34,894 bases of DNA from Desulfovibrionaceae bacterium (GTDB lineage Bacteria > Desulfobacterota > Desulfovibrionia > Desulfovibrionales > Desulfovibrionaceae), in the NCBI GenBank assembly GCA_031082225.1, contig JAVHLG010000040.1, forward strand, positions 1 to 34,894, written 5' to 3'. A model generated the notes under the pieces. That model was not told where the DNA came from. It searched no databases and saw only the letters and a list, made by a program, of their open reading frames with translations. Below are positions 10,037 to 34,812 of this stretch, in pieces. Within the stretch, counting starts at the first letter, position 1; every line of letters begins with the position of its first letter. Made by a program: the position numbers and the translations under genes.

Positions 10037-11503
10037 TCACGGCGTGGGGAAACGCACGGTCTTGACCTCGCCCCGCTGGGTGCTCACGGGCATTTCCTGT
10101 CCCTCGTGGCGGAACACCACGCTGCTGGGGTTGCCGAGCCGGACCTCGATCTTCTCCTTGTACGGCTCCGTGAGCGTCTGGCCCTTCTTGATGAACACCT
10201 CACGCGATTTGCCTCCATCGGCGGTGATGATGACCCAACTGCCGTCGGCCCCGACGATGTCCAGGCTTCGGGAACCCGCCGGGCGGGAAGCCGCGTCCTC
10301 GGCTGGTTTCGTCCCTGTCGCCGGATCGGGGACGGCAGGCGGGGTCGTCGGAACCGTCCCGACGGTCGGCAGCGCGGCCGGGGGCGTCGTCGGAACCGTC
10401 CCGACGGCTGGCGGCGCGGCCGGGGGCGTTCCAGCGGTCGTTTTGGGACTGACAGGCACCTGGGTGGCCAGGGAGGTGGCGTGGGCCTGGGGCACTTCTC
10501 CATTTGTTTTTGTCACGAATTTCAATGTCTTGACTTCGCCTGACGCAGCCTGAAGCGGATACGCCTTGTCATCGTAGGAGATTTCCACGTCCCCGGCGTT
10601 GCCGAGGCGGATCAGCAGGGATTCGTTGAAGCGGCCGATGAACCGTTTCCCCTTGGTCAGCATGATCCCCTTGGTGATGCCGCCATCGACCGAAACGTCG
10701 ATCCAGCATTCGGCCAGGGCCACAATGGTGACGTGATGCGCGCCATGTTCCCCGATGACGACGTCAGGGGAGAGGGATGGATCGGCAGGCTCCTCCGCAT
10801 CCGCCCCTGCCGCATCCGAAACCGGGGAGGAGGAAACGGATTCCGACGCTCCCGCAGCACCGGCCGGAACGGAGGGAAGGGGCGTCTGCCCCCCGCCGGG
10901 GGACGACTCGGACGCCGCTGGAATCTTTGCCGACGCCTGTCCCGGTTCAAGGGCGGACTGCCCGGTGGCCTTCGGTTCCGTTGCGGATCCGGACATGTTC
11001 CCGGGGCCGGACTGGGCCCCGTGTCCCGGCAAAACGCCCGGGCCAGCGGCGGGAAGGGATGTTCCGGACGATGGCGCGGGAGGTGTCGGCCGCCCGATAT
11101 CAAAGGGCAGCAGGGAAAAAAACCACAATGCGCCGACAACGACGAGCAAAATGACCGCCGCGACAAGGATGTAACGCAGATAACCGCCGTCACCGCTGCG
11201 GATCGTGGTCTGGGCCACGGGTTCATGCAGTTCGTGCTGCGGCATGATGTTGGATTCCTGGACGACGCCTGCCGCCAGGGAGAACGCCTCCCCCAGCTCT
11301 TCCGGATCCAGACCAAGCAATTTGGCGTAGTTTTTTATGAATCCCTTGGCGTAAACGGGATGCGGCAGACCGCTCTGGTCGCCTTCTTCAATGGCCGTCA
11401 GACAGGCGCGCCCGATCTTGATCCTGTCGATGACGTCATTGTCCGACAGACCTTGTCGTTCGCGCTCGGCTTTCAGCAAAGCACCTAATTCACGTAACTC
11501 CAT
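10037..11503 (-). CDS. RodZ-like membrane protein with two DUF4115-type domains
   Basis: A 488-aa protein with the RodZ plan: an N-terminal helix-turn-helix of the HTH_25 type (residues about 1-80, with AERERQGLSDNDVIDRIKI and PVYAKGFIKNYAKLLGLD), one membrane helix (109-131), a long Pro/Ser/Gly/Ala linker, and C-terminal periplasmic domains. Known RodZ has one DUF4115 domain; here two are visible, at about 257-331 (ECWIDVSVDGG, LLIRLGNAGDVEISYD, GEVKTLKF) and 412-487 (GSWVIITADGG, IEVRLGNPSSVVFRHE, GEVKTVRF). RodZ tethers MreB to the membrane and supports rod shape; this role is inferred. The linker between the domains contains a 14-residue duplication. The start at 11503 has a GGGAG site; an upstream start at 11563 adds non-family residues. 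surA and a PPIase lipoprotein gene are upstream. Confidence 0.85.
   Translation of the reverse strand: MELRELGALLKAERERQGLSDNDVIDRIKIGRACLTAIEEGDQSGLPHPVYAKGFIKNYAKLLGLDPEELGEAFSLAAGVVQESNIMPQHELHEPVAQTTIRSGDGGYLRYILVAAVILLVVVGALWFFSLLPFDIGRPTPPAPSSGTSLPAAGPGVLPGHGAQSGPGNMSGSATEPKATGQSALEPGQASAKIPAASESSPGGGQTPLPSVPAGAAGASESVSSSPVSDAAGADAEEPADPSLSPDVVIGEHGAHHVTIVALAECWIDVSVDGGITKGIMLTKGKRFIGRFNESLLIRLGNAGDVEISYDDKAYPLQAASGEVKTLKFVTKTNGEVPQAHATSLATQVPVSPKTTAGTPPAAPPAVGTVPTTPPAALPTVGTVPTTPPAVPDPATGTKPAEDAASRPAGSRSLDIVGADGSWVIITADGGKSREVFIKKGQTLTEPYKEKIEVRLGNPSSVVFRHEGQEMPVSTQRGEVKTVRFPTP
10344..10427. repeat. 42-bp tandem duplication in the RodZ-like linker
   Basis: Two near-identical 42-bp copies (from 10344 and from 10386) encode VGTVPTTPPA-type 14-residue repeats in the Pro/Thr linker between the two C-terminal domains. 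The reading frame is preserved. It looks like recent slippage in low-complexity DNA. Confidence 0.75.
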
Positions 11504-11650
11504 AGACTCACTCCCTGAACGTAAGCGCGTGGAAATCCAGGGGCTCTCCACGTCGCTTCGCATGTCTTCGGGGCATCATCCCGGAAGCGTCGATGTGCCG
11601 CCTGTCGCGGGCGGACCATCCTTCCGGGCTTTGCAGCGGCCCAAGGCGTC

Positions 11651-12646
11651 CTACAAGCGGACGTCGACAACCGCCTTGGAGCGCAGGTCGTTCATGTATT
11701 CCTGAAAAAGCTTTTCAAATTTGGCGCGGAAAAGCATCTCGTATATCTGGGCCCGGGCTTGCTGAAACGACTGGGAGGATGTCGTCGCCGGGGCCGGTTC
11801 GGCCGCCGCCGCCGCGACGTCGCCCTTGTCCTTGCGGATCAGCAGCACGGCCTTGCCCTCCAGGGAGATCGGCTTGGTGACCTGTCCGGCGGGGGTCTCC
11901 TGCAGGGCCGCGCGCAAGGGCGGGGCCAGATCCTCCACCACCACGTCGCCGCCCAATTCCCCGCCCTGTTCCCTTCCCGGACCGATGGAATGCTTGCGGG
12001 CCGCATCCGCAAAAGACATCTGCCCCGAGGCGATCTTCTGCCGCAGGGACTCCGCCTCGGCCATGCTGCCGACCATGATGAAGCCGATGGTTCCCGGGGT
12101 CCGCCGCGTCAGGTTGGCCTTTGGGTCGGGAATGTTGCCCCCCATCTGGTCATAGTACTGCTGCAACTCTTCGTCAGTGACAAGGATGCGCTTATTGACC
12201 ATGAAGCCGAGAAGCTGATGCTTTATCGCTTCCGTTTCAAGTCCTTTTTCAAATTCTTTCCGCGTCAGGCCCTCCTGGGCAAGCTGCTTGCGGAACTGCT
12301 CCTCATTCATGCCGTTCTGTTTTTTTAATTCATTAATTTTCGTAACAATTTCCGTCTCTGAAACGGTGATCCCCAACTTCTCTGCGGCCTGTTTGATCAA
12401 AATGTCGTTTATCATGGAGTCGAGAACCCGGCGTTGCAGTTCGACGTATTCGGGATCGTTGGGTGAAATACTGATGCCCTGCGCCTGCGACAGCAGTTTT
12501 TCAAGCTTCTCGTTGAGTTCGAAAAGGGTGATGAGCTGGCCGTTGACCACGGCCACCACTCTATCAACAAGTTCAGCAGCCTGGCTCTGTGCAGAAAAGA
12601 CGACCAGACACAGGGCCATCACAAGGGAGGAGAACGCGCGGGACAA
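11651..12646 (-). CDS. surA: SurA-like periplasmic chaperone / peptidyl-prolyl isomerase
   Basis: A 331-aa exported protein with a signal peptide (hydrophobic to about residue 20, cleavage near SQAA-EL). A SurA N-terminal chaperone domain (VVAVVNGQLITLFELNE through about 150) and one parvulin (PpiC) domain at about 185-275 (SFADAARKHSIGPGREQGGELGG) follow. E. coli SurA has two parvulin domains; this form has one. It would help outer-membrane protein folding in the periplasm. Translation starts at TTG (12646), because GGAGGA lies three bases upstream and the signal peptide begins there; no closer ATG is available. A promoter candidate lies in the 190-bp gap before it. The RodZ-like gene follows 147 bp later. 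Confidence 0.88.
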   Translation of the reverse strand: MSRAFSSLVMALCLVVFSAQSQAAELVDRVVAVVNGQLITLFELNEKLEKLLSQAQGISISPNDPEYVELQRRVLDSMINDILIKQAAEKLGITVSETEIVTKINELKKQNGMNEEQFRKQLAQEGLTRKEFEKGLETEAIKHQLLGFMVNKRILVTDEELQQYYDQMGGNIPDPKANLTRRTPGTIGFIMVGSMAEAESLRQKIASGQMSFADAARKHSIGPGREQGGELGGDVVVEDLAPPLRAALQETPAGQVTKPISLEGKAVLLIRKDKGDVAAAAAEPAPATTSSQSFQQARAQIYEMLFRAKFEKLFQEYMNDLRSKAVVDVRL

Positions 12647-12770
12647 GGTATCCTCCGGCAGACCGGGCTTCCCGGCCTGTATCAGGTTTGTTCCATAGAA
12701 AAAACGGGCAATGGCGACATGCCCCTTGCCTCATTTGGCGTCCGCCCCTGCGGAAAGCTTGCCCGGCAAA

Positions 12771-12799
12771 GCTATAGACGCTTTTGACAGGACAGGCAA
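12771..12799 (-). promoter_or_regulatory. Candidate promoter for surA
   Basis: The minus strand shows TTGCCT (12799-12794) and TATAGC (12776-12771) with an exact 17-bp spacer, four of six matches each. It lies in the longest gap of the mfd-to-rodZ run, about 120 nt before the surA start, and would separate surA from the upstream lipoprotein gene. Confidence 0.4.
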
Positions 12800-12836
12800 T
12801 CCGCTCCCGCCCTCCTGGCGCACTTGGGACGCATCC

Positions 12837-14540
12837 TTACGGGAAATCCACGGTTTTCACCTCGCGGGCCGACGATTCCACACGCTCCTGGCGATCCTTG
12901 AAGCGATAGCTGACGTCGCTTGGACTGCCAAACCGCACGGACAATTTCCTGGCGAAGGAAACCACGTGTTTTTTCCCGCCCTTGAGGTACAGCCGCTCTT
13001 CCTGCCCGTCATCAATCCTGAAGGTGATCCAACTGGCCTTGTTGGCCAAAAACTCCACCTCGCCCGGTCCGGTCTGGGCCGTCGGGACGCTGGCCGAAAC
13101 GCCCCCGTCCGGGGCGCTCGGCGACGGACCGGCCTGATCCGGAAGGGACACGGACCCGGCGGCCTCCTCCGTCCTGACCGGAGAGGCGGCGGCCTCCGTG
13201 CCCGAAAGGGGCGTTTCGGCAACGGATTCCGCCTGGGGGCGGGTCGGCTCTGGCTGGGATATCTCCTGGTCCGCTGAGGTCGTCCGGGGCACGGCTTCTG
13301 GTTCATCGGCGGACTCAAGGGACGGCACCAGCCGCAGAATCTCAGGCCTGCCGACGCCCTCCGCCAGGGTCTCGCCGGGGGTGACGTCCGGCGTCGCCGT
13401 GGGTATGCCTGGGGCATCCCCGGCCGTCGCCTGCGGCCCGGCCTCCGATTCCGGGTCTTTTGCATCAGGCTGGCTGGCGAACCTGTCCCCCAGGGATTTG
13501 GAGACCTCCCCGGTCTCGGCCAAAAGCGCGGCGTGCTCGCCCGCAGGCGCCCCGACGCCGGGAAACTCCTTTTTGAGGATGTCCGGCGAAGGCACTTCCG
13601 AAACCGTCGCCCTCCCGTCGTCCACCAGATGGGCGCTGATCCGGATGTCGGCTGCGGCCACGGCCCCGGCCAGCCAGGCGTCAAACGCCGCATTGCGTTT
13701 TTTCTCAGCCAGGGCCTGCTCCACCAGAGGATAGGCGGCGGCCGGATCCAGGGTATGGGTCGGCGTCTCTCCCACCAGAACCAGGGCCATGGCCTCATGC
13801 CTTTCCTGGATCACGGGGCTGGCCTGGCCGGGTTGCAGCTTCGCCAAAAGCGCCCGCCAGGATTCGGGAATCGCCTCCTTGGGAAGGTGCGCCTCCTGGA
13901 TGGAGGCCTCATCCAGGGACGGCTCCCGGGGAAACGCCCTGCCCGAGTCGCGCTGCCGCAGGGCCTCCTCCACCAGTTTTTTGTCCGGCCCGCGCACCAA
14001 AAGAAACGTCGTCTGGGCCGGCCGCCTAAACTCCGCCACATGCTCCTTGTAATAATCGGCGGCCTCCTGGACCTCTACCCTGGCCCGATCCTTGAGCACC
14101 AGGTCGGCGAAGGCGTCCATGACCGCCCGGGTCCGCAGGCTCTCCCGCCACTTGTGCGGATCAATGCTCTCCTCGAAGAGCATGCGGTCAAAGACCTCCG
14201 GCGGATAGTCGGCCCGAATCACCTTCTCCAGGCGGGCCACCGTCTCGTCCGTAACCGGACTCCCGATCCTGGCCAGTTCCTCAAGCATCAGCTCCCTGAT
14301 GATCAACTCGGCCATGATCCGCCCGTAATCCCGCCGCAGTCCCTCCACCGTGGGATTTTCCATGGCCACGAGGCCCACCCCGCGCAGGTCGTGATCGAAT
14401 TCGAGTTGGCCCAGGGTCAACGGACGGCCGTTGACCGTGGCCACGACGCCGGGAGGTTCCGCATTCCGGTCGCAGGCCCACAGCAGGGCCACGGCCGAAA
14501 AAAGGATCAGGAAGCGGAGATATCGGGGGAAAAACGTCAT
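12837..14540 (-). CDS. SurA/PpiC-type lipoprotein with C-terminal DUF4115-like domain
   Basis: A 567-aa probable lipoprotein. The hydrophobic N-terminus ends in the lipobox LWAC with Cys23. Asp24 follows, the inner-membrane retention signal in E. coli. Residues 30-165 resemble the SurA N-terminal chaperone domain (VVATVNGRPLTLGQLEFD), and 160-300 a degenerate parvulin region (HVAEFRRPAQ, LQPGQASPVIQ). A Glu/Pro/Ala/Ser-rich linker runs to about 490. The C-terminus (about 493-567) reads ASWITFRIDDGQ, RKLSVRFGSPSDVSYRFKD, REVKTVDFP, strongly like the two C-terminal domains of the RodZ-like protein two genes away. I know no named family with this whole layout. The start at 14540 has GGAAAG inside the end of mfd and lies five bases past the mfd stop. 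Confidence 0.75.
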   Translation of the reverse strand: MTFFPRYLRFLILFSAVALLWACDRNAEPPGVVATVNGRPLTLGQLEFDHDLRGVGLVAMENPTVEGLRRDYGRIMAELIIRELMLEELARIGSPVTDETVARLEKVIRADYPPEVFDRMLFEESIDPHKWRESLRTRAVMDAFADLVLKDRARVEVQEAADYYKEHVAEFRRPAQTTFLLVRGPDKKLVEEALRQRDSGRAFPREPSLDEASIQEAHLPKEAIPESWRALLAKLQPGQASPVIQERHEAMALVLVGETPTHTLDPAAAYPLVEQALAEKKRNAAFDAWLAGAVAAADIRISAHLVDDGRATVSEVPSPDILKKEFPGVGAPAGEHAALLAETGEVSKSLGDRFASQPDAKDPESEAGPQATAGDAPGIPTATPDVTPGETLAEGVGRPEILRLVPSLESADEPEAVPRTTSADQEISQPEPTRPQAESVAETPLSGTEAAASPVRTEEAAGSVSLPDQAGPSPSAPDGGVSASVPTAQTGPGEVEFLANKASWITFRIDDGQEERLYLKGGKKHVVSFARKLSVRFGSPSDVSYRFKDRQERVESSAREVKTVDFP

Positions 14541-14545
14541 GCTGT

Positions 14546-17500
14546 TCACTTTCCGTCCGGAGGTGTGGCGCACAGCGCGGCCAGTTCCCGGGCCGCCTCG
14601 GCCAACCCGGTGCGCAGGCCGCCTTCGGAAAGGCGCATCTCCAGTTTCGCCGGGGGCACGAGCCGCGCCCGGTCGCCGTGGGTATTGACGAACGCCACCA
14701 GGCTTTCGGCCGAAACCGCACCCACCGCGCCCGGCCGGGTTTCCCAGGACAGGGACAGTTTGGACGCGGTCACATCGGCGCGGGCCACTTGAAGCCTGGC
14801 CAGAACCTGCTTGAGGGCCAAAACGGAGATGAAGTTCTCAACCTCCTCGGGCAAGGCCCCGAACCGGTCGCGCATTTCGGCGGCCATCTCGGCCAGACCC
14901 GACTCATTGTGTGCCGTGGACAGGGCTTTGTAAAGCCGCAGCCGATCCTTGGGGTCGGACACGTAGCCTTCCGGGATGCGGGCCGACACGGCGATGGTCA
15001 ATTCCGGATCCGTGCGCTCGTTTTGCGGCTCGCCGCGCAGCCGCTTGATCTCATCGTCGAGCATCTCCAAAAACATGTCCAGCCCGATCCGTGAAATCTG
15101 GCCGGATTGCACCTCGCCCAGGATGTTTCCCGCGCCGCGCAGCCGCAAGTCCTCCATGGCCACCTGGAAGCCCGCCCCCAGATAGTCCATGTCCTGGATG
15201 ATCCGCAGCCTTTTGCGGGCCGTCTCCTGAATGCCGTCCAGGGAGGGGACCACGAAATAGGCGTAGGCCTGCAGCGACGAGCGCCCCACCCGGCCGCGCA
15301 ACTGGTAGAGCTGGCCCAGGCCGAACATCTGGGCCTGGTCCACGACGAGGGTGTTGGCCCGGGGGAAATCCAGGCCCGACTCGATGATGGCCGTGCACAC
15401 CAAGATGTCGATCTCGCCATGCCAGAATTCGTGCATGGCCTTTTCCAGCGCCCCCTCGGCCATCTGGCCGTGGGCCATGGCCACCCGGGCCTCGGGAACC
15501 AGCCGTTTGACGAAGGCCGCCGTCTCCTCCAGGCCGCGCACCCGGTTGTGCACCCAAAACACCTGCCCCTGGCGCTCCAGTTCCCGGCGCACCACGGTAC
15601 GCAAAAAATCCGGGTCGCGCTCGACCAGAACGGTCTCCACAGCCTTGCGCTCCGGGGGCGGGGTCTCGATGACGCTTAGGCCCCGGATGCCGGAAAGCGA
15701 CAGTTGCAGGGTGCGGGGAATGGGGGTGGCCGTGAGCGTCAGGACGTCGATGTTTTTACGCAGGGCCTTGAGCTTTTCCTTGTGCTTGACCCCGAAACGC
15801 TGCTCCTCGTCCAGGATGAGAAGCCCCAGGCGGGGGGCCTCCACGTCCTTTGACAGCAGACGGTGGGTGCCGATCAGGATGTCGATTTCCCCCCTCCTGA
15901 CCCCATCCGTCACCACCTTCTGGCGTTTGGGCGGCACAAACCGGCTCAGCATCCCCACCCGGACCGGAAAATCCCCCAGGCGCTTGCTGAAATTCTGAAA
16001 ATGCTGTTCGGCCAAAACCGTGGTGGGACACAGCATGACCACCTGCTTGCCGTCGAGCACGGCCCGAAAGGCGGCGCGCAGGGCCACCTCGGTCTTGCCG
16101 AAGCCCACGTCGCCGCATACCAGGCGGTCCATGGGCTCAGGCCGCTCCATGTCGGCCAAAACGTCGGCAATGGCCTTTTCCTGGTCCGGGGTCTCCTCGA
16201 AGCCGAATCCGGCCTCGAACTCCCAGTACAGCTCGTTGAGCGGGCCGTAGGCATAACCCTTGGCGACCTTGCGAAAGGCGTACATCTCCACCAGATCCCG
16301 GGCGATCTTCTCGATGGCCTTTTTGGCCTTTTCCCGGCCGAGTTTCCAGCGGTTGCCGCCCAGGCGGTCCAGGGCCGGATCGATCCCGTCGGGCCCCTTG
16401 AACTTCTGGATGAGCGACATGCGGTCCACGGGCACGTACAATCGGTCCTCGCCGTCAAAGTGCAAAAGCAGGTAGTCCCCGCCCGCGCTGTCCACGGTCA
16501 TCCGGGCCAATCCGTCGAATCGGGCCAGCCCGTAGTCGCGATGCACCACCAGATCCTCCGGGGCGATCTCGTCCTTCGAGGCGATCCCCTTGAAGCCGCG
16601 CACCCGTGCGGCCCGCCCGGCCTCCTCCCCGCCCTCGGGTCGCAGCACATCTTCGGACAGGATGAGCGTCCGGTTCCAGGCCAGCTCCATGCCCTGGCGA
16701 AGCGGCGACACCAGGGCAAAAAGGCCTGTCGTTCCGGGATGGTACGTGGTGGAGAGGGAGATGCCCTCGTGCTCGATCATCTTCAAAAACTTGGTGCGCG
16801 AACGCTCCCCGTGAAACGACAGCACCACCTGCCGTTTGGACACGGCCCAGTCCCGCAGCCCGGACATGAGCGCCGACCACGGGCGCTTGTCCTCCCCCGG
16901 TTTCCAGAACAGGTCGGAGAACCGTTCCACGCCCTTCTCGGGCATGTCCGGGCCATGCTTGCCGTGCCCCAGCACCAGATCCTCGAAAAGCACCTGCCGC
17001 CCGGCCAGCCACATCTTGCGGGCCATGCCCCCGGGCCAGCACAGCCGGGGTCCGGGCCAGCCGAATCCCCGCTGTGCGCTCTCGGCCTCCAAAAACTGCT
17101 TCCAGGCGTATTCCACCTCCTCCAGGCGGGAGCGCAGGCGCGAGGCGTCATACAGCATGTACACGGCGTCCCGGGGCAGATGCTCGGTCAAGGACGCGGG
17201 TTTTTCATAAAAAAGACCAGGCCAGATGGTTGCATCCCCGGCGTCGAGCTTGTTTTCCAGGGACGCCTTGGCCTCACGGCGCAGTTCGCCGGTCACGGCC
17301 ATGGATTCCCACAATTCCCGGGCTGCGGCGCGCGAGGCGTCGGTGAGCACGACCGGGGCCACGGGCAAAAGCTGCACGTGCGGCAGGTCGGCCTGGGAAC
17401 GCTGGGTGGCGGGGTCGAAGGTGCGGATGTTCTCGATGGTGTCCCCAAAAAACTCGAAGCGCAGGGGCAACGCATACCCCGGGGCGAAGATGTCCAGCAC

Positions 17501-18013
17501 GTCGCCGCGCACGGCCACCTCGCCGGGAGACTCCACCATGGGCTGGCGGCGGTATCCCCACAGGGCGGCCTGCTCCAAAAGAAGCTCCCGGGACATGTCC
17601 TCCCCCGCCGCAAGCTCGATGGAGCTTTCCTCGATCACCTGCCTGGGCGGCCATTTGGGCAACAGGTTGTCCACGGTCAACAGGCACAGGCGGGGCTTTG
17701 CGGTGGCGGTCGCGAAATTAAGAAAGGCATGCCGCGCGGCCCAGGCCGAAAGGGACGGCGCCCCTGGAGGATAGGGCGGCAGGGCCCGCCAGGGGGCATC
17801 GGCCAGGGAGTCGTCCCCCGGGGACAACAGCAGGGAAAAAAGGGATTTGAGCCGGGCCAGTTCCGGCGCTCCCGGCACGATGACCACCACGCAGGAGCCT
17901 GCGGCCAGCATGTCGGCGGCCAGAAAGGCCAGGGTGCCGGGTCCGCTTTTATACACGCCAAGCGAACTCCCCCGGCCTTTCAGAAAATTCGCAATCTCAG
18001 ACGGATACTGCAA
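14546..18013 (-). CDS. mfd: Transcription-repair coupling factor Mfd
   Basis: Mfd removes stalled RNA polymerase at DNA lesions and recruits UvrA for nucleotide excision repair. The 1155-aa length is that of the family. The UvrB-like N-terminal region (GSCVVVIVPGAPELARL, WGYRRQPMVESPGEVAVRGD) is followed by the polymerase-interacting domain (GLARFDGLARM). The RecG-like translocase has Walker A CGDVGFGKTEVALRAAF and the DEEQ box LILDEEQRFGVKHK, with TATPIPRTLQLSL and the later QLRGRVGRS. The C-terminal TRCF domain closes it. The start codon is TTG at 18013, with AAGGAG nine bases upstream. It is followed at once by the PPIase lipoprotein gene, so both are probably one transcript. A terminator separates it from cheW. 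Confidence 0.97.
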   Translation of the reverse strand: MQYPSEIANFLKGRGSSLGVYKSGPGTLAFLAADMLAAGSCVVVIVPGAPELARLKSLFSLLLSPGDDSLADAPWRALPPYPPGAPSLSAWAARHAFLNFATATAKPRLCLLTVDNLLPKWPPRQVIEESSIELAAGEDMSRELLLEQAALWGYRRQPMVESPGEVAVRGDVLDIFAPGYALPLRFEFFGDTIENIRTFDPATQRSQADLPHVQLLPVAPVVLTDASRAAARELWESMAVTGELRREAKASLENKLDAGDATIWPGLFYEKPASLTEHLPRDAVYMLYDASRLRSRLEEVEYAWKQFLEAESAQRGFGWPGPRLCWPGGMARKMWLAGRQVLFEDLVLGHGKHGPDMPEKGVERFSDLFWKPGEDKRPWSALMSGLRDWAVSKRQVVLSFHGERSRTKFLKMIEHEGISLSTTYHPGTTGLFALVSPLRQGMELAWNRTLILSEDVLRPEGGEEAGRAARVRGFKGIASKDEIAPEDLVVHRDYGLARFDGLARMTVDSAGGDYLLLHFDGEDRLYVPVDRMSLIQKFKGPDGIDPALDRLGGNRWKLGREKAKKAIEKIARDLVEMYAFRKVAKGYAYGPLNELYWEFEAGFGFEETPDQEKAIADVLADMERPEPMDRLVCGDVGFGKTEVALRAAFRAVLDGKQVVMLCPTTVLAEQHFQNFSKRLGDFPVRVGMLSRFVPPKRQKVVTDGVRRGEIDILIGTHRLLSKDVEAPRLGLLILDEEQRFGVKHKEKLKALRKNIDVLTLTATPIPRTLQLSLSGIRGLSVIETPPPERKAVETVLVERDPDFLRTVVRRELERQGQVFWVHNRVRGLEETAAFVKRLVPEARVAMAHGQMAEGALEKAMHEFWHGEIDILVCTAIIESGLDFPRANTLVVDQAQMFGLGQLYQLRGRVGRSSLQAYAYFVVPSLDGIQETARKRLRIIQDMDYLGAGFQVAMEDLRLRGAGNILGEVQSGQISRIGLDMFLEMLDDEIKRLRGEPQNERTDPELTIAVSARIPEGYVSDPKDRLRLYKALSTAHNESGLAEMAAEMRDRFGALPEEVENFISVLALKQVLARLQVARADVTASKLSLSWETRPGAVGAVSAESLVAFVNTHGDRARLVPPAKLEMRLSEGGLRTGLAEAARELAALCATPPDGK

Positions 18014-29880: not shown

Positions 29881-31050
29881 TTACATGATGGACGCGATGC
29901 GTGACAGGGCCTCCTCCAGGCGCTCCTTGCCCACGGTCAGGGCGATGCGGAAAAATCCCTCGCCGGGCGCGCCGAAGCCGTTGCCCGGGGTGAGCACCAC
30001 GCCGGTGTTTTTGAGCACCCTGGACACGAACCCGGCCGAGGTCTCCCCCGCCGGGACGCGGCACCACAGATAGAACGAGGCCTCGGGAACGCGGCAGTCG
30101 AGTCCCATCGTGCGCAGGGCGGGCACGGCGATGTCCCGGCGTTCCTTATAGATGGCCCGAAACGAGGCGGCATGCGGTTCGCCCTTGGTCAGGGCCGCCA
30201 CCCCGGCCTCCTGCACGGCCTGGAAGATGCCCGAATCCACGTTTTCCTTGATTTTTCCAAGGCCTTTGACCAGACTTTCATTGCCCACGGCCATGCCGAT
30301 GCGCCAGCCGGTCATGTTGTAGGTCTTGGACAGGCTGTGGAACTCCACGGCCACCTCCCTGGCCCCTTCGATCTCCAGGATGGACAGGGGCTTTTTGGCC
30401 GGGTCATAGTACATCTCGGTGTAGGCCGCGTCGGACACTACGATGGTCCCCGTCTCCCTGGCCTTTTTCACCAGCTTCTCGTAGAACTCGCGGGGAGCCG
30501 TGGCCCCGGTGGGGTTGTTGGGATAGTTGACGAAGATCATCCTGGCCCGGTCCCACTGGGCGTCAGTCACGGCGTCCAGGTCCGGCAGAAAGTCGTTGTC
30601 CGGGGTCAGGGGCAGTATCAGCGACTCCCCCCCGGCGAATCCCGTGGCCACCGGATAGACCGGATAGTTGGGCGAGGCGATAAGCGCCAGATCCCCGGGA
30701 TCGATGAAGGCCAGGGGAAAATGGGCGATGCCCTCCTTGGATCCGATGAGGCTCACCACCTCGTTGTCCGGGTCCAGGTCCACGCCGAAGCGGGTGGCGT
30801 ACCAGTCGGCCACGGCCCTGCGGAAGGACATAAGGCCCGTATACGAGGGGTATTGATGGTTTTCCGGCTTTTTGGCCGCTGCGTGCAGGGCCTCGATGAT
30901 GAAATCCGGGGTGGGCAGGTCCGGATCGCCGATGCCCAGGGAAATGATGTCCATGCCCTGGCTTTTGACTTCCGCCTTGAGCCGGTCGATTTCGGCGAAA
31001 AGGTATGGGGGAAGTTTGGCCACGCGGTCGGCGAGTCGAAACTGGGTCAT
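29881..31050 (-). CDS. dapL: LL-diaminopimelate aminotransferase, DapL type
   Basis: A 389-aa pyridoxal-phosphate aminotransferase of class I. The Schiff-base lysine is Lys242 in FHSLSKTYNMTGWRIGMA; other marks are YPSYTGLMSFRRAVADWY, IFVNYPNNPTGA and the C-terminal GNGFGAPGEGFFRIALT. The whole sequence resembles the Desulfovibrio LL-DAP aminotransferase, which makes LL-diaminopimelate directly from tetrahydrodipicolinate for lysine and peptidoglycan. An aspartate aminotransferase function cannot be excluded from sequence alone. AAAGGAG lies nine bases before the ATG at 31050; a longer in-frame start (31338) runs into xerD and is rejected. Its promoter lies between it and xerD, which is divergent. 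Confidence 0.9.
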   Translation of the reverse strand: MTQFRLADRVAKLPPYLFAEIDRLKAEVKSQGMDIISLGIGDPDLPTPDFIIEALHAAAKKPENHQYPSYTGLMSFRRAVADWYATRFGVDLDPDNEVVSLIGSKEGIAHFPLAFIDPGDLALIASPNYPVYPVATGFAGGESLILPLTPDNDFLPDLDAVTDAQWDRARMIFVNYPNNPTGATAPREFYEKLVKKARETGTIVVSDAAYTEMYYDPAKKPLSILEIEGAREVAVEFHSLSKTYNMTGWRIGMAVGNESLVKGLGKIKENVDSGIFQAVQEAGVAALTKGEPHAASFRAIYKERRDIAVPALRTMGLDCRVPEASFYLWCRVPAGETSAGFVSRVLKNTGVVLTPGNGFGAPGEGFFRIALTVGKERLEEALSRIASIM

Positions 31051-31122
31051 GCGGTCGCTCCTTTCCAGCGGGATGTCGCGCCCTGGTGCAGGGAAATGCT
31101 CCGGCGTGCGGCGCGGTGTGGC

Positions 31123-31152
31123 TTCATAAAAAGAGGTGGCGTCCCGTGTCAA
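31123..31152 (-). promoter_or_regulatory. Candidate dapL promoter overlapping the xerD start
   Basis: The minus strand has a perfect TTGACA (31152-31147) and TATGAA (31128-31123) with an 18-bp spacer. The -35 box shares bases with the xerD start codon region. Confidence 0.4.
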
Positions 31153-32111
31153 TGAAAAGGCCGCCCGGCCCCCCCCCGGCGCGACGCCCGGAGGCAGCCG
31201 CCGTCCACCCCATGGTGGACCGCTACCTGGAGCACCTCCTGGTCGTGAAGGGCCTGTCCGAAAACAGCCTGTCCGCCTATTCCCTTGATCTCGACTTCTT
31301 CCAGCGCTTTCTGGCCGAACGCGGCGGCGATGTCGCATCCGTCACCGACGAGACCGTCTTCCTCTATCTCATGCACCTGCGCACGCGCGGCCTGTCCAGC
31401 CGGTCCATGGCCCGGCACCTGTCCGCCCTGCGCGGATTTTACGCCTTCGCCGCCGACGAGGGTTTCCTGGCCGAAAGCCCGGCAGCCCTGGTGGAAAGCC
31501 CCAAACTGCCGCGCCTTCTGCCCGACGTCCTGACCACGGACGAGGTGGCCCGGCTGCTTTCCGCCCCGGACATGGACACCCCCCTGGGCTTTCGGGACAA
31601 GGCCATGCTGGAATTGCTCTACGCCGCCGGGCTGCGGGTCTCGGAACTGGTGACCCTGGCCCCGCTGGACTTCGACGCCCAGACCGGGCTGCTCAGGATC
31701 TTCGGCAAGGGCGCCAAGGAACGGCTGGTGCCCATCCACTACCTGGCCCAGGACATCTGCATCCGCTACCTGCACAGCGTGCGCGGGGCCTTCAAGCCCG
31801 TGGAGCGCTATTTTTTCCTCAACCGCTCGGGCAAGGGCCTGACCCGGCAGGGGGTCTGGAAGCTCATCAAGCGCTACGCCCTCCAGGCGGACATCCAAAA
31901 GGCCATCAGCCCCCACAGCCTGCGCCACTCCTTCGCCACCCACCTGCTCGAAGGCGGCGCGGACCTGCGCACGGTGCAGATGCTGCTTGGCCACGCGGAC
32001 ATCAGCGCCACGGAAATCTACACCCACGTCCAGGCCACACGGCTGCTGGCGGTCCACGACGCCTACCACCCCCGCTCCCGCATGGCCCTGAAACACGACC
32101 GGCAACCTTGA
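31152..32111 (+). CDS. xerD: Tyrosine recombinase XerD
   Basis: A 319-aa site-specific tyrosine recombinase of the XerC/XerD kind, which resolves chromosome dimers at dif. The N-terminal core-binding domain (VDRYLEHLLVVKGLSENSLSAY) precedes the catalytic domain with GLRVSELV (first Arg), KGAKERLVP (Lys), HSLRHSFATHLLEGGAD (His/Arg), LGHADIS and the nucleophile tyrosine in TEIYTHV. This sequence order and length are XerD-like, not phage-integrase-like. Two starts are possible: ATG at 31152, or GTG at 31146 with GAGG nine bases upstream. The DHH-CBS fusion gene starts seven bases after the stop, so they are one operon. Confidence 0.95.
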   Translation: MKRPPGPPPARRPEAAAVHPMVDRYLEHLLVVKGLSENSLSAYSLDLDFFQRFLAERGGDVASVTDETVFLYLMHLRTRGLSSRSMARHLSALRGFYAFAADEGFLAESPAALVESPKLPRLLPDVLTTDEVARLLSAPDMDTPLGFRDKAMLELLYAAGLRVSELVTLAPLDFDAQTGLLRIFGKGAKERLVPIHYLAQDICIRYLHSVRGAFKPVERYFFLNRSGKGLTRQGVWKLIKRYALQADIQKAISPHSLRHSFATHLLEGGADLRTVQMLLGHADISATEIYTHVQATRLLAVHDAYHPRSRMALKHDRQP

Positions 32112-32118
32112 AGGATCT

Positions 32119-34812
32119 ATGCCCCTATCCCTCCCCTCTCCCACCGTCGTCATCACCGGGCACAGCAACGCCGACTTCGACTGCCTGGCGGCCATCGTGG
32201 CCGCCGGCAAGCTCTATCCCGGCGCGGCGCTCGTTTTTCCCGGCAGCCAGGAAAAAAACCTGCGCCACTTTTTCATCCAAAGCGCCACGTATATGTTCAA
32301 TTTCAAAAATTTCAAGGACATCGACACCAGCCAGACGACCACCCTGGTCATGGTGGACACCCGCCAGAAAAACCGGGTGGCCCACGTGGCCCCGCTTTTC
32401 GACAGGCCGGACCTGATCGTCCACTGCTTCGACCACCATCCCGATTCCGACGACGACGTCGCCGCCGCCGTCTCCCTGGTCAAGCCCTGGGGCTCCACTG
32501 CGGGCATCCTGGTCAAGGAGATCCGCGACCGGGGCCTGACCGTGACCCCGGACGAGGCCACCATCATGGGCCTGGGCATCTACGAGGACACGGGCTCCTT
32601 CACCTTCAACTCCACCACCGAGCACGACCTGGCCGCCGCCGCCTGGCTGCGGGCCTCGGGCATGGATGTCAACGTCATCGCCGACCTCATGACCCGGGAA
32701 CTGAGCAGCGAACAGATCACCATCATGAGCGGGCTCATCGAGACCGCAGCCACCCACGACATCAACGGCGTGGAGGTGGTGGTGGCCGAGGCCTACTGCG
32801 AACGCTACGTGGGCGACTTCGCCCTTCTGGTCCACAAGTTTCTGGACATGGAGAACATCCGGGTGCTCTTCGCCCTGGGGATGATGAACGACCGGGTGCA
32901 TCTGGTGGCCCGCTCCCGCAGCCCGGACGTGGACGTGGGCCGCATCTGCTCCTCGCTTGGCGGCGGCGGACACGCCTACGCGGCCTCGGCCTCGATCAAG
33001 AACAAGACCATGACCCAGGTCAAGGAGGAGCTCTTCGCCCTGCTCTATTCCCAGATCAACCCCCAGATACGCATCCGCCAGCTCATGAGCCGCCCGGCCA
33101 TCAGCGTGGCCGAGGACGAGCGCATCGACAAGGCCGCCGAGATCATGACCCGCTACGGATTGAAGGCCCTGCCCGTGGTCCGCCCGGGCACAAAGATCTG
33201 CGTGGGGGTGCTTGAGCACGACATCATGGACAAGGCCGTCAAGCACGGTCTGGGCGAATTCGCCGTGGACGAATACATGATCCGCGACCCGGCCACGGTC
33301 TCCCCGGACACGGATCTGTATCCCCTCATGGAGATCATCCTGGGTCGGCGGCAGAGGCTGGCCCCGGTGGTGGAGAACGGAGAGCTGGCGGGCGTGGTCA
33401 CCCGCACGGACCTGGTCAACACCCTGGTCCAGGAACCCGCCCGCATCCCGGAGTCGCTTCTTCCTGAACGCAAGCGCGAACGCAGCGTGGCCGCGCTTTT
33501 GCGCGAACGGCTGCCCAAGGAGCTGTGCGCCCTGCTCAAGGAGATCGGCGAACTGGGCCAGGCCCGGGGCGTGGCCGTATATGTGGTGGGCGGCTTCGTG
33601 CGCGACCTGATGCTGCACCAGCCCAATTTCGACGTGGACCTGGTGGTGGAGGGCGACGGCATCGCCTTTGCCGAGGCCATGGCCCAGGCCTACGGCGGAC
33701 GGGCCAAGTCCCACCCCAAGTTCAAGACCGCCGTGGTGGTCCTGGGCGACGGCCGCCGCATCGACGTGGCCACGGCCCGCCTGGAATACTACGAATACCC
33801 CGCCGCCCTGCCCACGGTGGAGCTTTCCTCCATCAAGATGGACCTCTACCGCCGCGATTTCACCATCAACGCCCTGGCCGTGCATCTCAATCCCGGCCAC
33901 TTCGGCGATCTGGTGGACTTTTTCGGGGCCCAGCGCGACATCAAGGACCGGGTGGTGCGCGTCCTGCACTCCTTAAGCTTCGTGGAAGACCCCACCCGCA
34001 TCCTGCGGGCCATCCGCTTCAGCGAACGCTACGGATTCCGCATCGGGGCCCAGACCGAGCGCCTGATCAAAAACGCCCTGCAGCACAACTTCTTCCACAA
34101 GCTCTCCGGCGCCCGCCTGTTCCACGAAATCTCGCTGATCCTCAGCGAGGACAACCCCCTGGCCTGCCTGCGCCGCATGCAGCACTACAAGCTTCTGGCC
34201 GCCATCCACCCCCTGCTCAACCTCGACCCTCCCAAGGAGGCCCTGCTCACGGCCACGGACAACGTCATCAAGTGGTTCCGGCTGCTGTACATCGAGGCCG
34301 CGCCGCGCATCTGGCTGGTCTTTTTCCTGGCCCTGTGCTCCGGGCTGGATGACGAACAGTTCGAAATCATCGCCAGACGCCTGGGCTTCTCCAAAAAGGT
34401 GCTGGCCGACATCAGCGGCCTGCGCCACGCCATACGCCAGACCGCCCACCGCCTCTACAACTGGGAATATCTCAGGCTGCCCGTCAGCGAGCTGTATTTC
34501 CTCCTGGGTGCCCTGCCCCTGGAAGGCCTGCTCTACCTCATGGCCCGAAACCCCAAGGAATCCATCCAAAAACACATTTCGCTCTACCTGACCAAACTTC
34601 GGGACACCCAGATCGAGATCACCGGCGACGACCTCCAGTTCATGGGCGTGGACCCCGGCCCTCGCTACGGCCGCATCCTGCGCGCCGTCACCGCCGCCGC
34701 CGTGGACGGCGTGGCCACCAGCCGCGAACGACAACTGGAACTGGCCGGACGCCTGGCCCGGGGCGAGATATCCGACGAGCCGCCCGTGTGGGACATGCCC
34801 GAGGCCCAATAA
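32119..34812 (+). CDS. DHH-CBS-CBS-poly(A) polymerase/tRNA nucleotidyltransferase fusion
   Basis: An 897-aa multidomain protein. Residues 1-305 form a DHH phosphoesterase-like domain (HCFDHHPDSDDD, and GGGGHAYAASASIK of the DHHA1 part). Two CBS domains follow at about 315-443. The class II nucleotidyltransferase head starts near 488 (YVVGGFVRDLMLHQPNFDVD, with the DxD metal site) and continues with FVEDPTRILRAIRFSERYGF and the C-terminal tRNA-binding body. This architecture is known from deltaproteobacteria, Aquificales and Thermotogae, where it adds A or CCA ends to tRNA. Which nucleotides are added here is not clear from sequence, because a second enzyme could share the task. AAGGA precedes the ATG. 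A 23-bp repeat array begins directly after the stop. Confidence 0.92.
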   Translation: MPLSLPSPTVVITGHSNADFDCLAAIVAAGKLYPGAALVFPGSQEKNLRHFFIQSATYMFNFKNFKDIDTSQTTTLVMVDTRQKNRVAHVAPLFDRPDLIVHCFDHHPDSDDDVAAAVSLVKPWGSTAGILVKEIRDRGLTVTPDEATIMGLGIYEDTGSFTFNSTTEHDLAAAAWLRASGMDVNVIADLMTRELSSEQITIMSGLIETAATHDINGVEVVVAEAYCERYVGDFALLVHKFLDMENIRVLFALGMMNDRVHLVARSRSPDVDVGRICSSLGGGGHAYAASASIKNKTMTQVKEELFALLYSQINPQIRIRQLMSRPAISVAEDERIDKAAEIMTRYGLKALPVVRPGTKICVGVLEHDIMDKAVKHGLGEFAVDEYMIRDPATVSPDTDLYPLMEIILGRRQRLAPVVENGELAGVVTRTDLVNTLVQEPARIPESLLPERKRERSVAALLRERLPKELCALLKEIGELGQARGVAVYVVGGFVRDLMLHQPNFDVDLVVEGDGIAFAEAMAQAYGGRAKSHPKFKTAVVVLGDGRRIDVATARLEYYEYPAALPTVELSSIKMDLYRRDFTINALAVHLNPGHFGDLVDFFGAQRDIKDRVVRVLHSLSFVEDPTRILRAIRFSERYGFRIGAQTERLIKNALQHNFFHKLSGARLFHEISLILSEDNPLACLRRMQHYKLLAAIHPLLNLDPPKEALLTATDNVIKWFRLLYIEAAPRIWLVFFLALCSGLDDEQFEIIARRLGFSKKVLADISGLRHAIRQTAHRLYNWEYLRLPVSELYFLLGALPLEGLLYLMARNPKESIQKHISLYLTKLRDTQIEITGDDLQFMGVDPGPRYGRILRAVTAAAVDGVATSRERQLELAGRLARGEISDEPPVWDMPEAQ

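Follow-up and report, generated by a model that had tools for sequence, protein, structure and literature searches.

The periplasmic part of RodZ in Escherichia coli is held to contact wall-synthesis enzymes; its truncation lowers the number of MreB polymers, and the periplasmic domain has been called necessary for cell shape (PMC6052060, available portion). In Gram-positives, loss of the lipoprotein PrsA alters the amounts of secreted cell-division and wall-assembly proteins (PMC12826049, available portion). Here we describe a contig of 34,894 nucleotides from a Desulfovibrionaceae bacterium (JAVHLG010000040.1 of assembly GCA_031082225.1, positions 1 to 34,894 of the forward strand; the whole stretch is called the window below), in which a rodZ-like gene and the gene for a SurA/PrsA-like lipoprotein encode domains of one type, RodZ_C. 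A preliminary description had placed two DUF4115-type domains at the C-terminus of RodZ and a third at the end of the lipoprotein encoded two genes upstream, and had read this as a sign of a shared binding partner or of a module tying cell shape to envelope protein folding. The layout stands as it was described, with surA as the gene in between. Among the open-licence papers listed on RodZ, DUF4115 and SurA, judged from titles and the starts of abstracts, none reported this arrangement.

Three related domains in RodZ and the lipoprotein

The rodZ product has in common with known RodZ an HTH_25 domain, a hydrophobic stretch and a RodZ_C domain (d1) that keeps the canonical signature loop. It differs from known RodZ in an additional C-terminal RodZ_C-type domain (d2) with an altered loop, and it scores below both NCBIfam equivalog cut-offs for RodZ (40.9 of 375 bits and 35 of 208 bits). 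The third domain (d3) ends the lipoprotein. The features are:

10037..11503, minus strand: rodZ-like gene, 488 amino acids, with HTH_25, one hydrophobic (presumably transmembrane) stretch and two RodZ_C domains
11294..11479, minus strand: HTH_25 of RodZ, residues 9-70, from Pfam
11114..11173, minus strand: hydrophobic stretch of RodZ, presumably transmembrane, about residues 111-130, read from the sequence by eye
10514..10735, minus strand: d1, the canonical RodZ_C of RodZ, residues 257-330, G-N-A-G loop kept
10268..10513, minus strand: linker between d1 and d2 of RodZ, 82 residues, rich in Pro, Thr and Ala
10046..10267, minus strand: d2, the second RodZ_C of RodZ, residues 413-486, altered loop G-N-P-S-S, ending two residues short of the C-terminus
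11651..12646, minus strand: gene for a SurA-like periplasmic chaperone, between the lipoprotein gene and rodZ
12837..14540, minus strand: gene for the SurA/PrsA-like lipoprotein, 567 amino acids
14472..14474, minus strand: lipobox cysteine of the lipoprotein, Cys23 (LLWAC|DRN), read by eye
13611..14471, minus strand: chaperone core of the lipoprotein, SurA-type fold, with a parvulin domain matching Rotamase_2 only
13062..13610, minus strand: linker of the lipoprotein, 183 residues, low-complexity and mostly predicted disordered
12840..13061, minus strand: d3, the RodZ_C-type domain that forms the last 74 residues of the lipoprotein (494-567)

The family RodZ_C (Pfam PF13464, formerly named DUF4115; curated cut-off 23.9 bits) matched RodZ in two stretches, at residues about 257-330 and 413-486 (whole protein E 1.6e-21, 76.4 bits), and HTH_25 matched its N-terminus above cut-off (74.2 bits, cut-off 24.6 bits). 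For d3 the RodZ_C match lies at residues 498-560 of the whole lipoprotein (E 9e-4, 19.6 bits); the score is 21.3 bits in a genome scan and 22.5 bits for the isolated domain, and all three values are under the cut-off. The d3 orthologue in another genome of the same genus (G001) passes it with 24.7 bits, and those in G002 and G027 fall below with 15.7 and 16.4 bits. All 11 d3 sequences from two genera matched RodZ_C at E <= 1 (best 1e-5), and a scan of the bacterium's whole genome at E <= 0.001 returned d1, d2 and d3 only. Pairwise alignments of the three domains need no gaps and score 98-117, a level that was never reached in 5000 shuffles of each pair (z 18-22).

Key residues are common to d1, d2 and d3 in a gapless alignment, but d3 differs from the Pfam family in scoring just under its cut-off, in sitting in a protein that lacks HTH_25 (no HTH family is among the Pfam matches of the lipoprotein at E <= 1), and in a signature loop whose A-G is replaced by P-S, as it also is in d2. 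It is a divergent RodZ_C-type domain and not a canonical RodZ_C. In the same genome, a scan widened to E <= 0.1 also gave a fourth, weak RodZ_C match on another contig (G000:C12:4496-4633, E 0.013, below cut-off).

An AlphaFold model of d3 built on a mixed 16-row alignment has eight strands and a predicted local distance difference test (pLDDT) score of 93.8. When the alignment held five lipoproteins and no RodZ rows, the identical eight strands were predicted, with block means of 77-88 in d3 and 27-55 in the preceding linker. The evidence on the fold covers these two d3 models. By sequence, a profile of the three domains found two chance-level matches among PDB chains (E 1.1 and 2), and Foldseek with the d3 domain found nothing in the PDB or among viral models at E <= 0.001. 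A second structural aligner gave TRAP as the closest solved fold (62-65 residues at a root-mean-square deviation of 2.1-2.5), at a Z of 8.3 that is near the range of 7 to 8 which, by the aligner's own caveat, best matches commonly reach without relationship. The rings that TRAP assembles into are built by contacts of its beta sheets. A pattern for d3 matched 26 times in viral contigs, and 0 of these matches were confirmed.

The homology of the three domains is supported by the shuffles, by the same-genus orthologue above cut-off and by the AlphaFold predictions, and the profile search did not bear out the concern that the lipoprotein end might be unrelated to DUF4115. Details of the pattern first proposed for the three domains fared less well: d2 has Trp-Val where Trp-Ile was given, and the Trp lies in the second strand and not the first (residue 15 of the d3 model, with strands at 4-10 and 14-20). 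Chance resemblance of beta-rich sequences could draw on the single-sequence Pfam scores: d3 itself misses the curated cut-off, and so do two of the three orthologues scored. The gapless shuffle scores, the G001 orthologue, the loop characters and trees given below, and the structure predicted without RodZ rows all stand against it, and we consider it ruled out for practical purposes by the Pfam profile match, the shuffles and the RodZ-free prediction.

Origin, selection and distribution

The canonical signature loop reads G-N-A-G-G-V, and among 35 single RodZ_C domains the characteristic residues are kept in most (C in 31, N in 35, A in 31, and the two G in 32 and 34). Of the 11 d1 rows, 10 have C-W and 9 have G-N-A-G. 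Both d2 and d3 have S-W together with P-S in the loop in 11/11 rows each, and the d3 loop is G-S-P-S-E/D throughout (11/11). By these characters d1 is an ordinary RodZ_C, and the d3 of the lipoprotein is of the same type as the extra domain d2 of RodZ. Domain trees of 74 columns, which hold little signal, join d2 and d3 in one branch with support of 99/97 (41 rows; L077 and L083, neither matched by the profile used, were left out) and 100/98 (68 rows; three duplicate single domains and the G027 locus were left out here and in the column table). As a clade of its own d2 has support of only 84/65 and 89/70 in the two trees, respectively, and the copying may have run from d2 to d3 or the reverse. 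When the lipoprotein core, SurA and the N-terminus of RodZ are concatenated (21 rows), the resulting tree, an operon tree and not a species tree, places the 11 d3-bearing operons in one clade (100/100). As far as the trees indicate, RodZ likely acquired its additional copy, and the lipoprotein its own, before the two genera split.

Ratios of nonsynonymous to synonymous substitution (dN/dS) were obtained by NG86 for eight within-genus pairs, taken from dN and dS and rough at 73 codons per domain; three between-genus pairs, one without a computable dS, were left out of the ranges. The ratios are 0.08-0.25 for d3, 0.02-0.21 for d1, 0.02-0.31 for d2, 0.10-0.36 for the lipoprotein core and 0.29-0.62 for the linker, whose alignments are poor and whose ratios are indicative only. 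In 8/8 pairs d3 is below its own linker, and 24 of its 74 columns are invariant across 11 sequences from the two genera. By its low ratio relative to the linker, d3 shows the conservation of a functional domain, whereas the stretch that carries it changes rapidly.

The d3 profile was searched at E <= 1e-9 over 348 genomes of the order, that of the window (G000) counted, and matched 18, with a true d3 in 16. These are 3/3 genomes of the window's genus and 13/14 of genus g26, identified as Solidesulfovibrio, and d1, d2 and d3 are all present in each of them. The remaining g26 genome (G176, 69% complete) has a weaker, d2-like match only, and the match in G007 is the canonical domain of its own RodZ. 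In the other 331 genomes d3 was not found. For 11 of these 16 genomes the sequence preceding d3 was read and contains the chaperone core, as it does in 4/5 named loci (four from Solidesulfovibrio, one from Desulfovibrio sp. DV), the fifth being cut by a contig end. The pairing of RodZ with a lipoprotein bearing a DUF4115-like domain extends to close relatives, in two related genera of sulfate-reducing bacteria whose operons form one clade. It is lineage-specific; as a feature of the whole family or order it is ruled out by the absence of d3, at E <= 1e-9, outside these genera. The lipoprotein gene, surA and rodZ are consecutive in 21/21 family operons read, the window included, the other 20 loci having been picked for having the lipoprotein.

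Across 118 genomes of the phylum, 62 of 66 RodZ_C matches lie in frames with HTH_25. The other four are the lipoprotein of the window, a fragment in G231 (its frame has 48 residues, and an HTH_25 match lies about 400 bases upstream on the same strand) and two small proteins in G223 and G188; no further RodZ_C proteins without HTH_25 were found in this sample. The G223 and G188 proteins, which are below cut-off, and a weak match in G030 look by eye like one small secreted family unlike RodZ. Loci L123, L124 and L125 hold a small secreted family with the motif H[TS]xLCxCFDNGDGTITCxGGFSDGSSAAGV and weak, apparently false RodZ_C matches. G012 has a second RodZ_C place above cut-off (G012:C13:98049-98228), on a contig other than that of its operon copy.

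The lipoprotein and the surrounding genes

Foldseek with the lipoprotein core returned 34 PDB chains at E <= 0.001 (E 1e-9 to 5e-5), with Cj1289 (1e-9), SurA (4.5e-8) and PrsA (3.1e-7) among the top ones. The overall fold is alike, but the target TM-scores are modest (best 0.54 among the top matches), and the long disordered tail ending in d3 is the lipoprotein's own feature. PrsA carries a lipid anchor, and the lipoprotein has this in common with it. The protein is classed as SurA/PrsA-like and not as a RodZ. Its match to SurA_N_3 is below cut-off (12.6 vs 27.2 bits). Its parvulin, or peptidyl-prolyl isomerase, domain matches Rotamase_2 (31.9 bits, cut-off 27); PF00639 is matched by the neighbouring SurA but not by the lipoprotein at E <= 1, and because of this difference isomerase activity of the core appears doubtful.

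Directly behind the lipobox Cys, Asp was read in 3/3 rows of the window's genus, in 0/8 of g26, which have Gly, Lys or Leu there, and in 2/10 others. Asp at this position is the Lol-avoidance signal of E. coli. A conserved signal for retention in the inner membrane is unsupported, the residue varying across genera; because of this variation we assign the lipoprotein to neither membrane, and judging from the lipobox the membrane that carries it may differ between the two genera.

The linker before d3 is 131-221 residues long across 11 operons. In 22 of 23 lipoproteins from other genera the tail has 17-137 residues and is low-complexity by eye, Pfam having been run on two of the 23. The remaining one (G016; L084 / L059) has a tail of 234 residues with two PEGA stretches (PF08308, E 3.5e-11). 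Small domains have been added on the same lipoprotein tail in both cases, but the family differs, and the PEGA stretches are a separate domain addition at the same place in another genus.

On the minus strand of the window the gene order is mfd, lipoprotein gene, surA, rodZ, recO, glyQ, glyS. The upstream neighbour of the lipoprotein gene is:

14546..18013, minus strand: mfd, transcription-repair coupling factor

Between 9000 and 18300, 3 promoter-like sites (shuffles 1.2, standard deviation 1.2) and 8 terminator-like sites (shuffles 9.9, standard deviation 3.8) were counted and left unused. Elsewhere in the window, 32119-34812 on the plus strand encodes a single protein with DHH, DHHA1, CBS (two stretches) and poly(A) polymerase head domains, which by these domains is a CCA-adding-type enzyme fused to a DHH phosphoesterase. 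Immediately before it, 31005-32111 (plus strand) encodes a tyrosine recombinase (Phage_integrase, SAM-like N domain) that could be XerC/D-like.

A possible docking role for the lipoprotein domain

The data support a history that begins in the last ancestor shared by the window's genus and Solidesulfovibrio: d2 was added to RodZ as another domain of the RodZ_C type, and d3, of d2's altered type, came to end the disordered tail of a lipoprotein in the same gene cluster. Purifying selection has maintained both since. We infer that d3 may be a docking module. Tethered by a lipid at one end of the protein and by some 130-220 residues of tail, d3 could reach the periplasmic site of d2; the target would be the ligand of d2 or RodZ d2 itself, and the chaperone core would thereby be held near the wall-elongation (Rod) complex. 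There the docked chaperone could aid the folding of newly exported elongation proteins, for example PBP2 or MreC, the client being a guess; MreB and MreC are encoded in the same genome. That d3 brings the chaperone to the docking site of RodZ d2, next to the Rod complex, is a prediction we regard as a reasonable possibility, somewhat short of probable. In its favour stand the homology of the three domains and the modelled fold of d3, the common branch and loop change of d2 and d3, the co-occurrence of d1, d2 and d3, the single clade of d3-bearing operons, the constraint on d3, the SurA/PrsA-like fold of the core, the presence of MreB and MreC, and the published effects of the RodZ periplasmic part and of PrsA cited at the outset. 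More tentative is the proposal that the wall-elongation machinery has its own dedicated folding factor, a lipid-anchored chaperone recruited via a copied RodZ domain to the ligand of d2, with the altered d2/d3 loop as the binding face.

Several observations weigh against docking. The canonical RodZ_C loop is lost in d3, so that d3 may bind something other than an ordinary RodZ_C does; the lipoproteins of other genera lack the domain; and a common inner-membrane location is not supported, the lipobox +2 residue being variable. Approximately unbiased (AU) tests leave d1+d2 (p 0.105), d1+d3 (p 0.172) and d1+d2+d3 (p 0.52) unrejected as clades, and the tree program flags d3 and d2+d3 as points where long branches come together. 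The periplasmic domain of E. coli RodZ is, moreover, described as largely dispensable for rod shape in the available portion of PMC6946637, so that its role is disputed between that paper and PMC6052060. Since d3 belongs with d2 and has lost the canonical loop, its partner may differ from that of ordinary RodZ. The homology and the pairing given in the preliminary description both hold, and the shared binding partner or shape-folding module that it proposed is plausible.

The main rival to docking is that d2 and d3 bind a general envelope surface (peptidoglycan, lipopolysaccharide or an outer-membrane protein), with RodZ and the lipoprotein tied by domain ancestry alone. The two PEGA stretches of G016, which suggest that other beta-rich additions are tolerated on this tail, the loss of the canonical loop in d2 and d3, and the variable lipobox residue would all suit such anchoring. 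It accounts less readily for a source and a recipient that are close neighbours in one gene cluster, and for a domain otherwise confined to RodZ in the phylum sample (62/66 matches in HTH_25 frames), and we find it somewhat unlikely. Direct binding of d3 to d2 (or d1) of RodZ, with the domain as a homotypic interaction module, is unlikely: d2 and d3 are each other's closest relatives, and TRAP, a ring former, is the closest solved fold at a Z of 8.3 near the range common without relationship, but the periplasmic self-interaction of E. coli RodZ has been ascribed to its disordered part (PMC6946637, available portion). Less likely still is that d3 merely remains from a duplication and closes a disordered tail without having any function. 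Its lack in other genera, with 22/23 of the tails read there being 17-137 residues of sequence that is low-complexity by eye, would fit this; against it, its dN/dS is under that of its linker in every pair, a third or so of its columns (24/74) never vary in 11 sequences from two genera, and it is kept in 16/17 genomes, the sole miss being the 69%-complete one.

The locus is a new arrangement of known parts, and its sequences hint that cell shape and the folding of envelope proteins may be linked. Published accounts disagree on what the folded periplasmic domain of RodZ does in E. coli, and a lineage with one extra copy in RodZ and one on a chaperone is a natural handle on it: d2 and d3 are two baits for whatever they bind, and the loop in which both depart from canonical RodZ_C is a candidate binding face. 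If docking is true, a Gram-negative bacterium would fold its elongation proteins at the place where its cell-shape machinery works.

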